64,000 nt of DNA from Kiritimatiellaceae bacterium (lineage in GTDB: Bacteria; Verrucomicrobiota; Kiritimatiellia; Kiritimatiellales; Tichowtungiaceae), in contig JABFQY010000002.1 in NCBI GenBank assembly GCA_013141415.1, positions 62,001 through 126,000 on the forward strand, in the 5' to 3' direction. Shown here piece by piece: positions 1-12,418 of this stretch; positions within the stretch are counted from its first letter, which is position 1, and the number at the start of each line of letters is the position of its first letter. The translations under genes and the position numbers were made by a program. The notes under the pieces are model-generated. The model was not told the DNA's origin. It saw nothing but the letters and a program-made list of their open reading frames with translations, and did not search any database.

Positions 1-1040
1 GTGCGGTGGTTTTCGGCGGCAATGCGCAGCAGTTCCGCCGTGCGGACTTCGACGGAAGTGATCCAGCGATAGCCCTCGCCGACAAGCAGGTCGCCGGCAT
101 TGATGGCGACCGGAATGCCGTACTGCCGGTGAAACGTCGGCTCGCCGTAACGCAGATCATCGCTGTCTTCAATATCGTCATGAATGAGCGAAGCCTTATG
201 GAAACATTCGACCGCAATGGCAAGGCGGCGGACTTCATCGGGCAGATCGGTGATTCCGTCGCTGAGTGCGCTGTAGGTGCAGGCGAGCAGATAGGGCCGC
301 CAGCGCTTGCCGTCCTTGAGCAGCCAGTCAACCGCAATCTGTTCGGTGCGGGTTTCGGTTTTCCATGCGCCGGAATCTGCGAACCACCCGTCAACGACTT
401 GATGCAGGCGTTCCGTGTCGAGCGTGTTTTTCCAAGGCGTAGAAGATTTCAGCCGGATGGCGTCGCGAACGTGATCCACATCCATCTTGGTGCCGATACA
501 CCCGTCAACCGTGAGCGGGACGGCCAGACCGGGAATCGCGCCATCCGCCATCTGCGGAAAAGATTTTTCGAGCGCGTTCAGACAGCTGACGCCGACGACG
601 GCATCCACCTTGCCGCCATCCAGCAGCTTGGAAACAACGGTGGAGCCTTCAGCGACGAGGACGACATAGCCGAGATCTTCGGCGAGCGACTGAAGTTCGC
701 CGATATGGCAACATCCGCAGGCTTCGCATAGCAGACCGAATTCATCCATTTTAGCCGGACAGTCCCGCTGACTGCGCAGACATTGCGGAAGGAGAAGAAG
801 GCGGCGTTCGTAGGGAATGGAGGCAACCGTGTCGCGCCAGACTTCGTTGTTGAGCAGTACCATCACATAGCCGATCGCGCCTTGGCCCGGTGCGATCTGT
901 TCAGCATGGTCGCGCAATTCTTCCATGGAAAGCGGCGGCACGAGCTGGTGTTCCGCGGCATAAACGGAAACCTCGCGCATAAGCTGGTCGCGCTCGAACC
1001 GTTCCGCCGGAACTCCGTACTTTGGTTGGGTCTGCTGCAT
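1..1040 (-). CDS. DUF116 domain-polyprenyl synthetase fusion protein (3' end outside window)
   Basis: An open frame runs from ATG at 1040 to the left edge, giving 346 residues without a stop. Residues about 75-195 match DUF116: a cysteine-rich segment with C87, C94, C105, C108, C110 and C111, then C153 and C181, suggesting a metal or Fe-S site. Residues from about 205 are an all-alpha prenyltransferase. They contain the GKRWRP substrate-binding motif at 244-249, the first Asp-rich motif DDIED at 288-292, and the following RYGEPTFHRQYG and INAGDLL segments. Family knowledge: such enzymes condense isopentenyl diphosphate with an allylic diphosphate using Mg2+. The second Asp-rich motif would lie outside the window. 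The start codon overlaps the TGA of the radical SAM gene by one base, so translation is probably coupled. The role of the DUF116 part is unknown. Confidence 0.85.
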   Translation of the reverse strand, partial: MQQTQPKYGVPAERFERDQLMREVSVYAAEHQLVPPLSMEELRDHAEQIAPGQGAIGYVMVLLNNEVWRDTVASIPYERRLLLLPQCLRSQRDCPAKMDEFGLLCEACGCCHIGELQSLAEDLGYVVLVAEGSTVVSKLLDGGKVDAVVGVSCLNALEKSFPQMADGAIPGLAVPLTVDGCIGTKMDVDHVRDAIRLKSSTPWKNTLDTERLHQVVDGWFADSGAWKTETRTEQIAVDWLLKDGKRWRPYLLACTYSALSDGITDLPDEVRRLAIAVECFHKASLIHDDIEDSDDLRYGEPTFHRQYGIPVAINAGDLLVGEGYRWITSVEVRTAELLRIAAENHR

Positions 1041-2233
1041 CACCCGTAGGCTCCAAATCCGAAAAACCAGTTTTTCTTGGCAAAGCGATACGCCCAACTG
1101 CGCTCCGGAATTTCGCTGCCGGGCTGATGATGACTGCCGCACGGACACATCTGGTTCAGCTCGGCCAGCAATGTGCCGCGCCCGGAGCTATCGACCGCGT
1201 CTTCGTCTTTGATGAATCCGGCAAGCTGTTTCGGGTTCTCCATGATGATGCAACCCTGCGTGGTCTTGCAGCACATGGTGCGGAATTTTTTTAGAAATGC
1301 CGATTCGTTGAATAGCTTGTATAGTCCGGTGCCGTCGCCGATATTATCTTTGGCAAACTGAAGCGGCGGACACGGCTCGACGAAGCCGTCGGGGCTGACG
1401 TGATTAGCGATGCCGACCGCCGCCGGACAAAGCGCCCTGCCCTTATCATCCCAATAAGCATCAACGACCACGACCGGTGCCGTGAGGCGGATATCCACAA
1501 TGAAGCGGCGCAGCGCTGTGACCTGTCCGGCGTCGAGCGCCAATTCGGGCGACGCATTCGGGCCAACGGGACGGTAGATGTAATACCAAAGATAATGCGC
1601 GCCGAGCGCGGCGATTTCGTTCACAAACTTTTCGCTGGCGAGGTCGGCGATGTTGGACTTGCAGACGCTGGTGCAGACGCCGGTGACGAGGCGATGCTTT
1701 CGGCAGTTCGCCAGCCCCGCCAGCGTCTGTTCGTAAACGTTTTTTCCGCCGCGCCGCTCGTCGCTCACTTTTTCAAGCCCTTCAATACTAATGAGCGGGC
1801 TGATGTTGCCGATCCGGCGCATTTCTTTGGCAACGGCATCGGTGATCAGCGTGCCGTTGGTGAAGAGTAGAAAATAACAGTCGGGATGTTTTTCGAAAAC
1901 TTCAAAGAGGCCGTCGTAGAGCAGCGGTTCGCCGCCGAGAATTCCGAAGAAGCAAGAGCCTTGCGCTTTGCATTCGCGGATGACGTTGTCGAGCGTGCCA
2001 GGCGCAATCTGTTTGGGCGGATTAGATTGCGACACCCAGCATCCCTGACAGGCAAGGTTGCAGGCGTTGGTGACGGACAGGAAAAGAAACGCCGGGAAAT
2101 ATTCGCCGCGCTTGAGACGCTTTTGAAATTTTTCGATGGAGCGCATGCCTTTGTAGCCGAAGTTATAAGCAAACTTCCAAAGGAGCCGCTTGTCGGGCTC
2201 GGTCAGCATTCGCTTCATCAGCGCGATACTCAT
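1040..2233 (-). CDS. radical SAM protein with C-terminal cysteine-rich region
   Basis: 397 residues. The cluster motif CNLACQGC lies at residues 58-65 (C58, C62, C65, the CX3CX2C that binds the SAM-cleaving 4Fe-4S cluster). A glycine-rich segment FFGILGGEPLLY follows, as in the SAM-binding GGEP motif. The C-terminal third has further cysteines (ALCPAA, EPCPPL, CCKTTQGC, CPCG), consistent with a SPASM-like auxiliary cluster region. I chose ATG at 2233 because it overlaps the upstream TGA as ATGA and is preceded by a strong GGAGGAG site; an in-frame ATG at 2251 is also possible. It sits between a ferredoxin gene and a prenyl synthetase fusion gene, so the substrate may be isoprenoid-related, but that is inference. 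Overall it resembles the large SPASM/HpnH-like radical SAM group without matching one characterised enzyme. Confidence 0.85.
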   Translation of the reverse strand: MSIALMKRMLTEPDKRLLWKFAYNFGYKGMRSIEKFQKRLKRGEYFPAFLFLSVTNACNLACQGCWVSQSNPPKQIAPGTLDNVIRECKAQGSCFFGILGGEPLLYDGLFEVFEKHPDCYFLLFTNGTLITDAVAKEMRRIGNISPLISIEGLEKVSDERRGGKNVYEQTLAGLANCRKHRLVTGVCTSVCKSNIADLASEKFVNEIAALGAHYLWYYIYRPVGPNASPELALDAGQVTALRRFIVDIRLTAPVVVVDAYWDDKGRALCPAAVGIANHVSPDGFVEPCPPLQFAKDNIGDGTGLYKLFNESAFLKKFRTMCCKTTQGCIIMENPKQLAGFIKDEDAVDSSGRGTLLAELNQMCPCGSHHQPGSEIPERSWAYRFAKKNWFFGFGAYG

Positions 2234-2931
2234 ACTTTCTCCTCCGCGCATTTTTTCCGTTCCGCCAGCGCCTGTTCGACCTTCTTCTGGTTCAGCAACG
2301 TGCGGCGTTTCTGTTTGCGGGCATTGAGCGCGGCATAAACATCGTTGCCGAGAATTTCATCTACGTTGATTTTGATGTTCGCCTTGAGGGCTTCTTCGTC
2401 GGAGATTTCCGCGCCGTTGATCGGAGCCTCGCCGACTTTCGGAAAGATGATGGCGGCTTCAGGACAAATCCGCGCGCAGGCCGGACAATTGTTTTTACAG
2501 CTCTGCGGATTCGTCACGCGCACTTTGCCGTCCGCATCTTTTTCATAAACTCCGAACAGGCAGAACTCAAAACACTGTCCGCAGTTCGTGCAGCGGTCGC
2601 CATCGATGACCGGGAACCATGAGAGAGTTTGGGAGTGAGGGAGTACGGGAGTGCGGGAGTGTGGGAGTACGGGAGTACGGAGGTTAATGAACTCGGCGCT
2701 TTCAGGAAGCGGATATCCGGCAAAGGCAAACAGCGCCCGGACGGCACGGGGGTGGCAGGCATAGATGACGGGATACTCTGCCGCCGCGATGTCTTTGAGT
2801 CGCGGATCATTTTTCTGAGCGGCGCAACAGAGGTCGGGCACAACGAGCCCGGAAACCTCGTCCGCATTTCCAAGGTTCAGCAGGCCGCGCTCTGCGCATT
2901 GGCAGATCAGGATGGTTTTATTTGCTGACAT
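2230..2931 (-). CDS. 4Fe-4S dicluster ferredoxin-type protein
   Basis: 233 residues. Two cluster motifs are visible: CTNCGQCFEFC at 114-124, and C145-X3-C149-X2-C152-X3-C156, which ends in a typical CPEAA. The N-terminal hundred residues form a separate small domain with cysteine pairs (CQC near 10, CC at 35-36) and C59. The C-terminal tail is lysine-rich and probably helical. The start at 2931 lies 14 bp inside the upstream PQQ-type gene, and the stop overlaps the radical SAM start, so this is an internal operon gene likely to supply electrons to the radical SAM enzyme (inference). Residues about 85-101 read as a repeated RTPVLPHS unit, translated from an inserted 8-bp tandem repeat between the two domains. 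That stretch is unlikely to belong to the original fold. Confidence 0.85.
   Translation of the reverse strand: MSANKTILICQCAERGLLNLGNADEVSGLVVPDLCCAAQKNDPRLKDIAAAEYPVIYACHPRAVRALFAFAGYPLPESAEFINLRTPVLPHSRTPVLPHSQTLSWFPVIDGDRCTNCGQCFEFCLFGVYEKDADGKVRVTNPQSCKNNCPACARICPEAAIIFPKVGEAPINGAEISDEEALKANIKINVDEILGNDVYAALNARKQKRRTLLNQKKVEQALAERKKCAEEKV
2631..2678. repeat. 8-bp tandem repeat (six GGGAGTNN units) inside the ferredoxin gene
   Basis: Six consecutive octamers read GGGAGTGA, GGGAGTAC, GGGAGTGC, GGGAGTGT, GGGAGTAC and GGGAGTAC on the plus strand. The array is read through in frame on the minus strand, and three octamers give one eight-residue peptide unit. A related octamer array with both orientations lies at the start of larC (34192-34288). 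Confidence 0.9.
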
Positions 2932-4114
2932 TGATCGCGACGAGCGTTCCTTTGTCGTTGCGGCAATAGATGATTCCGTTCGCCAGAACCGGCGGCGTCC
3001 AGCACAGCTGACCGAGCCCGGTGTCCATTTTTGAAATCTCGTTATATTTATCCGGCGCGGTAGCCGCAAAGTAGAGCGTTCCGGATTCGCCCAACACAAT
3101 CAGCTTGCCGTCCGCCGCGATCAATGAGCCGAAGCCGATCTGTTCGCTCCATTTTTCGGAGCCGTCGGCGGCAGAGATACAGCGCAGGGTTCCCTTCGAT
3201 TTGGTCTGGCCGTCAATTCCGTAAATGTACCCGTCAATATAAACACAGCTGCTGAACTGGGTTTTCAGAGCCGTGCTCTCCCACAGCTTATTCAGTTCAC
3301 CGGAGGAAAAGTCGAGCATGGCGCAACCGCGATCGTAGCCGGAAGAAATGAATATCTTATCGCCGATAACAAGCGGGTCGGCCCCGTTGATATCGAACTT
3401 GGTGATCCACTCAATGGACGCGATCTGCTTTCCGGTTTTGGCATCAACCGTTTGCAGGCCGGACGCTGTAAACATTGCGGCACACCGCTTGTCTGCGCGG
3501 TCGAACACAACCGGCGAAGCATAGCTTGGCGCTCCGACACTGCTCCATTTGATGCTTCCGCTGTTCTTGTCGAGCGCCACTCCGGCAGAACCGATGTTCA
3601 GCAGAATCATATTCCCTTCGATAACCGCTGAAGATGAAATGCCCCATCTGATGTTTTTGTTACCTGTCTTGCCGGGTACATCAGCCTGCCATTTTATTTT
3701 TCCCGACGCCGCATCGAGGCAAATGACCAGCCCGTCCTGACTGACCGTATAGACACAATCCCCGTCAATCACAGGAGTGGCGCGCGGCCCTTTATACTTT
3801 CCTCCTGTTTGCGAAGCATAAGAATAGCTCCAGACTTCTTTCCCGGTTTTTGCGTCCAGACAATAAACCGTGTCTTTGCCTGCTTTATCATCAGCCGACT
3901 CATGCCCCATGGTGTAAAGTTTATCGCCCTTGACGCTGACCGACGAATAACCGGCGCCCAGCTCCTTCGTCCAAAGCGTTTTTGCCCCGCTGGAATCCCA
4001 GCCGGTTTCTTTTGAAATTCCATTGCCATCCGGACCGCGCCAGACCGGCCAGTCGTTGGCGTATCCACCGGCGGCTGCCGCCGCAACTGTCAGGTACAAC
4101 ATCCAGTTCTTCAT
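2918..4114 (-). CDS. secreted PQQ-type beta-propeller protein
   Basis: 398 residues. An N-terminal signal peptide (about 1-20, positively charged start then an Ala-rich core) precedes DWPVWRGPDGNG, a hallmark opening of PQQ-like WD propeller proteins. The rest is a run of blades with the recurring pattern of an Asp/Ala-x-Thr/Ser-Gly-Lys turn followed by a Trp, such as LDAKTGKEVWSY and LDAASGKIKWQA. The family includes BamB-like scaffold proteins and quinoprotein-like proteins; nothing here shows that PQQ is actually bound. A GAGGAG site precedes the ATG. It is the first gene of the four-gene minus-strand operon and overlaps the ferredoxin gene by 14 bp. Location should be periplasmic or cell surface. 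Confidence 0.85.
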   Translation of the reverse strand: MKNWMLYLTVAAAAAGGYANDWPVWRGPDGNGISKETGWDSSGAKTLWTKELGAGYSSVSVKGDKLYTMGHESADDKAGKDTVYCLDAKTGKEVWSYSYASQTGGKYKGPRATPVIDGDCVYTVSQDGLVICLDAASGKIKWQADVPGKTGNKNIRWGISSSAVIEGNMILLNIGSAGVALDKNSGSIKWSSVGAPSYASPVVFDRADKRCAAMFTASGLQTVDAKTGKQIASIEWITKFDINGADPLVIGDKIFISSGYDRGCAMLDFSSGELNKLWESTALKTQFSSCVYIDGYIYGIDGQTKSKGTLRCISAADGSEKWSEQIGFGSLIAADGKLIVLGESGTLYFAATAPDKYNEISKMDTGLGQLCWTPPVLANGIIYCRNDKGTLVAINVSK

Positions 4115-11959: not shown

Positions 11960-12418
11960 TCAGTTCATCGCCGCGATGACTGTGTTGAGTGCGCCGGCAA
12001 ATGAAACCCATAGAAAATACGGAATCATCAGCCACGCCGCCAGACGACTGCGCTGACTGAAGGCTCCGATACAAATGAGAATCGAAAACCAGAGCAGGGT
12101 CAGCACAATCAGCGCCGAGTCCGGACGATGCAGTCCGAAAAATACCGGACTCCAAAGTGCATTAAGAAGCAGCTGTGCGCCGTACGCGGTAAAAACTGCG
12201 CGCCGTTCCTCGCGGCATCCGCGCGTCCAAGCGAGGTAACCGGCCAGACCGATCATCAGGTAAAGCGTCGACCACACCGGGCCGAATATCCACGACGGAG
12301 GATTCCACGACGGTTTGTTCAACGCCTCATACCAGCCGCCGATGTTTACAAAAACCGCGCTGAGCGCCGGTAGAAATGCGATACCGATGAATAAAAGAAC
12401 TAGCCCCGCTTTTTTCAT
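11960..12418 (-). CDS. tspO: TspO/MBR-family membrane protein
   Basis: 152 residues with five predicted transmembrane helices, the usual size and fold of TspO. Conserved Trp/Pro-rich motifs are visible: WYEALNKPSWNPPSWIFGPVWSTLY in pieces such as KPSWNPP and FGPVWSTLY, then NALWSPVFFG and WFSILI. Family knowledge: TspO binds porphyrins and other hydrophobic ligands and is linked to tetrapyrrole handling and stress. The gene stands alone between the FAD oxidoreductase relict and the trehalase-like gene. No specific ligand can be inferred from context. Confidence 0.9.
   Translation of the reverse strand: MKKAGLVLLFIGIAFLPALSAVFVNIGGWYEALNKPSWNPPSWIFGPVWSTLYLMIGLAGYLAWTRGCREERRAVFTAYGAQLLLNALWSPVFFGLHRPDSALIVLTLLWFSILICIGAFSQRSRLAAWLMIPYFLWVSFAGALNTVIAAMN

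Follow-up and report, generated by a model that had tools for sequence, protein, structure and literature searches.

The question raised by this locus is how a polycyclic isoprenoid could be made without squalene/phytoene synthase (PF00494), the one protein family that is taken as required for squalene and phytoene synthesis. The window analysed here is a stretch of 64,000 nucleotides from a Kiritimatiellaceae bacterium (G000:C2:62001-126000 on contig JABFQY010000002.1; the host genome has 2.2 Mb in 7 contigs and is 95.5% complete), and it begins inside an operon in which a DUF116 domain is fused to a polyprenyl synthetase (PPS) and encoded together with a radical S-adenosylmethionine (SAM) enzyme and a ferredoxin. 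That these three proteins are joined in a dedicated isoprenoid pathway, as supposed in a first-pass annotation, is well supported by gene co-occurrence and by the terpenoid-type neighbours. We further propose, with a probability of roughly 0.45, that the cluster encodes its own biosynthetic route to an isoprenoid with several rings and dispenses with a PF00494 synthase, DUF116 coupling the prenyl chains. The genes in question are listed below; positions past the left edge of the window refer to region L003 (G000:C2:46001-66000), where window position p becomes p+16000.

1..1040, minus strand: N-terminal part of the DUF116-PPS fusion (Pfam, start from relatives, alignment, AlphaFold2 model)
to G000:C2:61541 (L003:15541-17040), minus strand: whole fusion gene, continued beyond the left edge
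456-878, minus strand: DUF116 domain of the fusion; its PPS domain runs from about 332 past the left edge
1040..2233, minus strand: radical SAM protein of 397-403 amino acids (Pfam, NCBIfam, alignment, start from relatives)
2230..2931, minus strand: two-cluster ferredoxin, its N-terminus bearing a cysteine region of the form CxC...DLC...ACxPR (Pfam, alignment, start from relatives)
2918..4114, minus strand: propeller of the PQQ_2/BamB type, with which the operon begins (Pfam, synteny)
L003:14755-15534: Prenyltrans toroid protein of 259 amino acids, the next gene past the window edge
L003:13968-14636 (G000:C2:59968-60636): small transposase-like gene between the toroid and cyclase genes
L003:12223-13959: SQHop_cyclase N+C protein of 578 amino acids with the motif PDADDTA

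With starts that are conserved in relatives the four window genes overlap by 14 bp (propeller/ferredoxin), 4 bp (ferredoxin/radical SAM) and 1 bp (radical SAM/DUF116-PPS), in agreement with the 1-14 bp reported at first reading. Their identities were confirmed by Pfam, with 116 bits for PQQ_2, 30 bits for Fer4_10, 61 bits for Radical_SAM (PF04055) and, in the fusion protein, 127 bits for DUF116 (PF01976; residues 91-231, gathering cut-off 25 bits). In the gene as truncated by the window the polyprenyl_synt domain (PF00348) scores 83 bits from residue 273 onwards and lies in the same frame as DUF116; on the host contig the complete fusion is a single open frame of 535 amino acids without stop, and the PPS score rises to 141 bits. 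This frame together with 33 homologues that align across both domains rules out a frame error. Past the left edge not only the rest of the PPS was found: the operon runs on leftwards for at least 14.5 kb, so that the window shows no more than the beginning of the cluster, and further isoprenoid genes follow directly, namely those for the toroid protein and for a cyclase with a DxDD motif.

The fusion is not restricted to the host lineage. A scan of named genomes, with metagenome-bin labels taken as given, detected it in Kiritimatiellales including Pontiella sulfatireligans, in Lentisphaeria, Verrucomicrobiales and Planctomycetota (Fimbriiglobus, Pirellulaceae) as well as in one acidobacterium and one Bacteroidales bacterium, and the core order ferredoxin-radical SAM-DUF116/PPS-toroid-cyclase is syntenic in at least four phyla. 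In a whole-genome co-occurrence test with 45 genomes all 17 Kiritimatiellia with the fusion possess both the radical SAM gene and the cyclase; among their relatives without the fusion the radical SAM gene was found in 0 of 12 and the cyclase is missing in 11 of 12. Among 294 Planctomycetota DUF116 is present in 58 of the 59 genomes with a radical SAM orthologue, and the radical SAM gene in 56 of the 63 with a long-frame DUF116 (Fisher p 2e-48, relatedness not corrected). The fusion is thus mostly accompanied by the radical SAM gene in relatives; a predominance of relatives with the fusion alone, which would have counted against the pathway idea, was not observed. Two elements of the first-pass annotation find no support. 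One is a restriction to anaerobic conditions, as Planctomycetota lineages commonly have the cluster and several of them possess PF00494 synthases as well. The other is the PQQ propeller as a core component. Among the phyla sampled it occurs in the cluster only in Kiritimatiellia and Lentisphaeria; elsewhere the propellers and the redox module described below are often replaced upstream by genes for a CobW-type GTPase and for a GcvH-like protein that has the lipoyl lysine, sometimes with a NifS-like gene. Examples of the GcvH-like/CobW-type pair before the core genes are L031:5900-7496, L033:1567-3403, L126 and L127 (Planctomycetota, Acidobacteria, Verrucomicrobiales).

PF00494 gave no match in the host genome and none in 19 of the 27 genomes with fusion and cyclase, including G000 itself and G024 (taken as P. 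sulfatireligans, which carries the full operon); in the control set the same search matched 7 of 14 genomes. Therefore, barring a gene overlooked because an assembly is incomplete, the cyclase substrate in most carriers cannot derive from a known squalene/phytoene synthase.

A coupling function for DUF116 is proposed mainly because of its occurrence in carotenoid clusters. In the close relatives G003 and G008 a standalone DUF116 of 150 amino acids is located between CrtI-family desaturases, for which the names CrtN/CrtP were assigned by gene arrangement, and an aldehyde dehydrogenase, i.e. in a cluster of the C30-carotenoid type, and PF00494 was found in neither genome. DUF116, PF00494 and the desaturase were compared over the same 338 Verrucomicrobiota genomes (p-values of this comparison ignore relatedness). 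A carotenoid desaturase is present in 50 of them: 37 have PF00494 and the other 13 a standalone DUF116, so that each of the 50 possesses exactly one of the two. These 13 are spread over ten families and in 8 of them DUF116 adjoins the desaturase. The contrast lies partly between types of carotenoid clusters, as the desaturases of some PF00494 genomes are all distant (about 30% identity), but 14 genomes use PF00494 even though their desaturases are 43-64% identical to the query. As far as gene content can tell, this is the pattern of a non-orthologous replacement, not a proof of it. With the known C30 carotenoid clusters (CrtM/CrtN/CrtP/AldH) the window cluster is linked by DUF116, which stands there in its standalone form where the PF00494 synthase is missing; it differs from them in having no carotenoid desaturase but a cyclase and a radical SAM enzyme.

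On the observed gene order, domain identities, motifs, co-occurrence, PF00494 absence and replacement pattern the following pathway can be proposed. The PPS domain, a clear member of its family, would produce an all-trans prenyl diphosphate. Its first Asp-rich motif is DDIED in nearly all of the 33 homologues (DDVQD in one), and the second is DDLEE here, many homologues having DDxxD and others NDLKD. In PPS enzymes a small residue before the first Asp-rich motif leads to longer chains, and the alignment places an alanine at -5 ahead of DDIED, which suggests a product longer than C15-C20. The DUF116 domain would hold an Fe-S centre on seven cysteines (C123, C130, C141, C144, C147, C189 and C217, all conserved without exception across 15 fused and 16 standalone domains), with the operon ferredoxin as likely electron donor, and would reductively remove the diphosphate and join two prenyl chains head to head, which is the job of squalene synthase. 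We infer this role because standalone DUF116 replaces PF00494 in the carotenoid clusters. The coupled product would be protonated and cyclised by the squalene-hopene cyclase (SHC)-like protein through its DxDD motif, kept in 17 of 17 homologues (PDADDTA/PDGDDTS), with the toroid protein as a putative cyclase partner, and the radical SAM enzyme might tailor the ring system as a functional parallel of HpnH. In Kiritimatiellia and Lentisphaeria an NADH-linked membrane redox module may in addition supply electrons or use the product. The cysteines of the radical SAM enzyme and of the ferredoxin as well as the first PPS motif are kept in almost all homologues; in a 14-sequence alignment of the radical SAM protein the CxxxCxxC cysteines C64, C68 and C71 are invariant, and so are C275, C294 and C334.

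Such an arrangement is reminiscent of the hopanoid pathway (HpnC/HpnD/HpnE, the squalene-hopene cyclase HpnF and the radical SAM enzyme HpnH), where coupling, a DxDD triterpene-type cyclase and a radical SAM enzyme are also encoded together. However, most carriers described here are without the PF00494 proteins HpnC/HpnD and have DUF116 fused to a PPS instead, and both cyclase and radical SAM enzyme remain below the respective cut-offs. The cyclase can be placed by its sequence in the squalene-cyclase superfamily, but with 84.6 bits against NCBIfam hopene_cyclase TIGR01507 (cut-off 431.1) it is ruled out as hopene cyclase; likewise the radical SAM enzyme, with 40.6 bits against TIGR03470 (cut-off 225.05), is ruled out as HpnH, the adenosyl-hopene transferase. 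Two other candidate assignments were rejected: the ferredoxin is not the mercury-methylation protein HgcB (35 bits, cut-off 99), and protein prenylation by the toroid protein is ruled out, as the zinc ligands are not conserved (in 19 homologues no position with Cys or His is close to invariant).

Among the alternatives the best survivor, which we consider unlikely, manages without any head-to-head coupling. The PPS would make a regular head-to-tail long prenyl diphosphate, the SHC-like enzyme would cyclise this chain directly in the manner of class II diterpene/sesquarterpene cyclases, and DUF116, ferredoxin and radical SAM enzyme would modify chain or ring by adenosylation, alkylation or reduction. 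Both the missing PF00494 in most carriers and the small residue ahead of DDIED, with the long chain it suggests, are in line with this, and the PDB matches of the cyclase include class II enzymes of the drimenyl and copalyl diphosphate synthase type, i.e. diterpene/sesquiterpene cyclases with which it shares DxDD chemistry, SQHop_cyclase_C similarity and independence from squalene synthase. However, its best PDB match is squalene-hopene cyclase with 138 bits compared to 36-68 bits for the class II diterpene-type cyclases (68 and 36 bits for the copalyl/drimenyl type), it travels with DUF116 and the radical SAM enzyme, and direct cyclisation gives no reason why standalone DUF116 should take the place of PF00494 in carotenoid clusters.

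Several observations weigh against DUF116 as the coupling enzyme of the window cluster. Standalone DUF116 occurs without desaturase in 4 of the 288 remaining Verrucomicrobiota genomes, and the carotenoid-linked DUF116s form one clade, so the independent events number fewer than 13. Fused and standalone DUF116 represent separate deep clades and the function may not transfer between them. This transfer is the weakest link in the argument because eight genomes with fusion and cyclase also keep PF00494. The AlphaFold2 model of the fusion (predicted local distance difference test 82, predicted template modelling score 0.81) has a PPS half that matches farnesyl and geranylgeranyl diphosphate synthases and a DUF116 domain in the form of a cysteine-rich, Rossmann-like alpha/beta unit, for which the PDB yielded no significant match, including IspH or any synthase; as modelled, the fold gives neither support for the proposed chemistry nor grounds for its exclusion. 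Finally, in many Planctomycetota, from a set of closed or near-closed, low-GC genomes that by their size and GC content are possibly those of anammox bacteria, the order def-fmt-DUF116-rsmB puts DUF116 in a translation context, and this fmt/rsmB neighbourhood may indicate a wider or different role. In five such low-GC genomes the genes for an SHC and for an HpnH-like protein are no more than about 6 kb away from DUF116 (L206:1420-9511; similar in L203, L211, L212 and L215); one pair near def-fmt-DUF116-rsmB was scored, and both proteins are above cut-off (hopene cyclase 758 vs 431 bits, HpnH 444.6 vs 225).

The deep split between the clades and the eight carriers that retain PF00494 would also be compatible with a scheme in which only standalone DUF116 couples chains and the fused domain acts differently, e.g. 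by preparing the prenyl chain for the radical SAM enzyme through reduction or priming. We regard this as still less probable than direct cyclisation. The seven cysteines are common to both clades, and where the fused DUF116 is short of some or most of them (L039, L043 and L044), the genome has neither the radical SAM gene nor a close cyclase, as one would predict were the Fe-S chemistry part of the pathway. Neither of these two genes is present in L042 either.

Equally improbable in our view is that DUF116, rather than being a synthase, assists IspH or other Fe-S enzymes of isoprenoid synthesis as a partner in electron transfer, repair or regulation, an unrecognised synthase making the carotenoid backbone in the 13 genomes. 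In its favour IspH is divergently adjacent to standalone DUF116 in three genomes (G486, G618 and G592; L182:7143-8596, L184:8416-9900 and L190:7485-8950), two of these three neighbours having been scored and both being above the TIGR00216 cut-off; the small size (about 150 amino acids), the richness in cysteine, the Rossmann-like model and the fmt/rsmB context would suit a partner as well. A partner role leaves unexplained, however, why DUF116 is found exactly where PF00494 is missing (13/13 vs 0/37), and most bacteria with IspH manage without it (268 of the 338 Verrucomicrobiota have no DUF116). IspH (LytB) can also be considered as a chemical model for the coupling proposed here: it is a ferredoxin-fed Fe-S reductase of allylic diphosphates, and the reaction suggested for DUF116 would likewise use an Fe-S cluster to expel an allylic oxygen leaving group by reduction, but DUF116 has no detectable sequence or fold similarity to it. 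Mere chance neighbourhood of the cluster genes is ruled out by cross-phylum synteny and co-occurrence.

If head-to-head coupling by DUF116 is accepted, a broader proposal follows, to which we give slightly less credence than to the pathway itself. DUF116 would represent a new, non-homologous, Fe-S-based and ferredoxin-fed class of head-to-head coupling enzymes that replaces PF00494 in C30 carotenoid clusters, that starts, when fused to a prenyl synthase, a polycyclic terpenoid pathway in bacteria of the Planctomycetota-Verrucomicrobiota-Chlamydiota group, and that may explain the squalene-type hydrocarbons of PF00494-free methanogens. Squalenes are widespread in methanogens. Among the 14 control genomes DUF116 was detected in two and no others, those of Methanocaldococcus jannaschii and Methanosarcina acetivorans, neither of which has a PF00494 match. 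Isoprenoid hydrocarbons of C25 and C30 have been reported from the methanogen M. vannielii and of C30-C40 from Thermococcus (PMC10821996). A search of the literature retrieved no publication in which DUF116 is connected with isoprenoids. If true, the existence of a second route based on Fe-S chemistry would change the picture of how hopanoids and carotenoids first arose, and DUF116 would gain a function. There would then be a candidate synthase for the methanogen hydrocarbons, and polycyclic lipids not yet described would be expected in bacteria that can be cultivated, such as Pontiella sulfatireligans.

Some neighbouring genes and minor observations complete the picture. After the cyclase the operon continues with two PQQ_2 propellers, an NHL protein, a ferredoxin with a Tat-like start (RRDFIK), a NapH-like polyferredoxin and a further propeller, followed by a NuoE/NuoF-type fusion of 781 amino acids and a NuoG/GltD-like protein of 444 amino acids. 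The membrane redox module (L003:1026-9453, G000:C2:47026-55453), made up of the NuoE/NuoF fusion, the NuoG/GltD-like protein, the NapH-like polyferredoxin, the Tat-type ferredoxin and propellers of the NHL and PQQ-like kinds, belongs to the same operon in Kiritimatiellia and Lentisphaeria. The transposase-like gene, by eye of the IS200/REP-associated type, has no counterpart at this position in relatives, where the toroid gene lies next to the cyclase gene or overlaps it. A second, distant subfamily of the radical SAM protein (206-245 bits to the profile), sometimes in tandem pairs, is seen in other Planctomycetota (L130, L131, G284:C353). L041, a contig from a bin labelled Candidatus Kuenenia stuttgartiensis, has 68% GC and contains a cysteine-poor DUF116-PPS near those of other Planctomycetaceae; it is probably misbinned or mislabelled and was not used as anammox evidence. 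Within the window, a frame at 11960-12418 on the minus strand resembles, as judged by eye, a TspO/MBR-type membrane protein.

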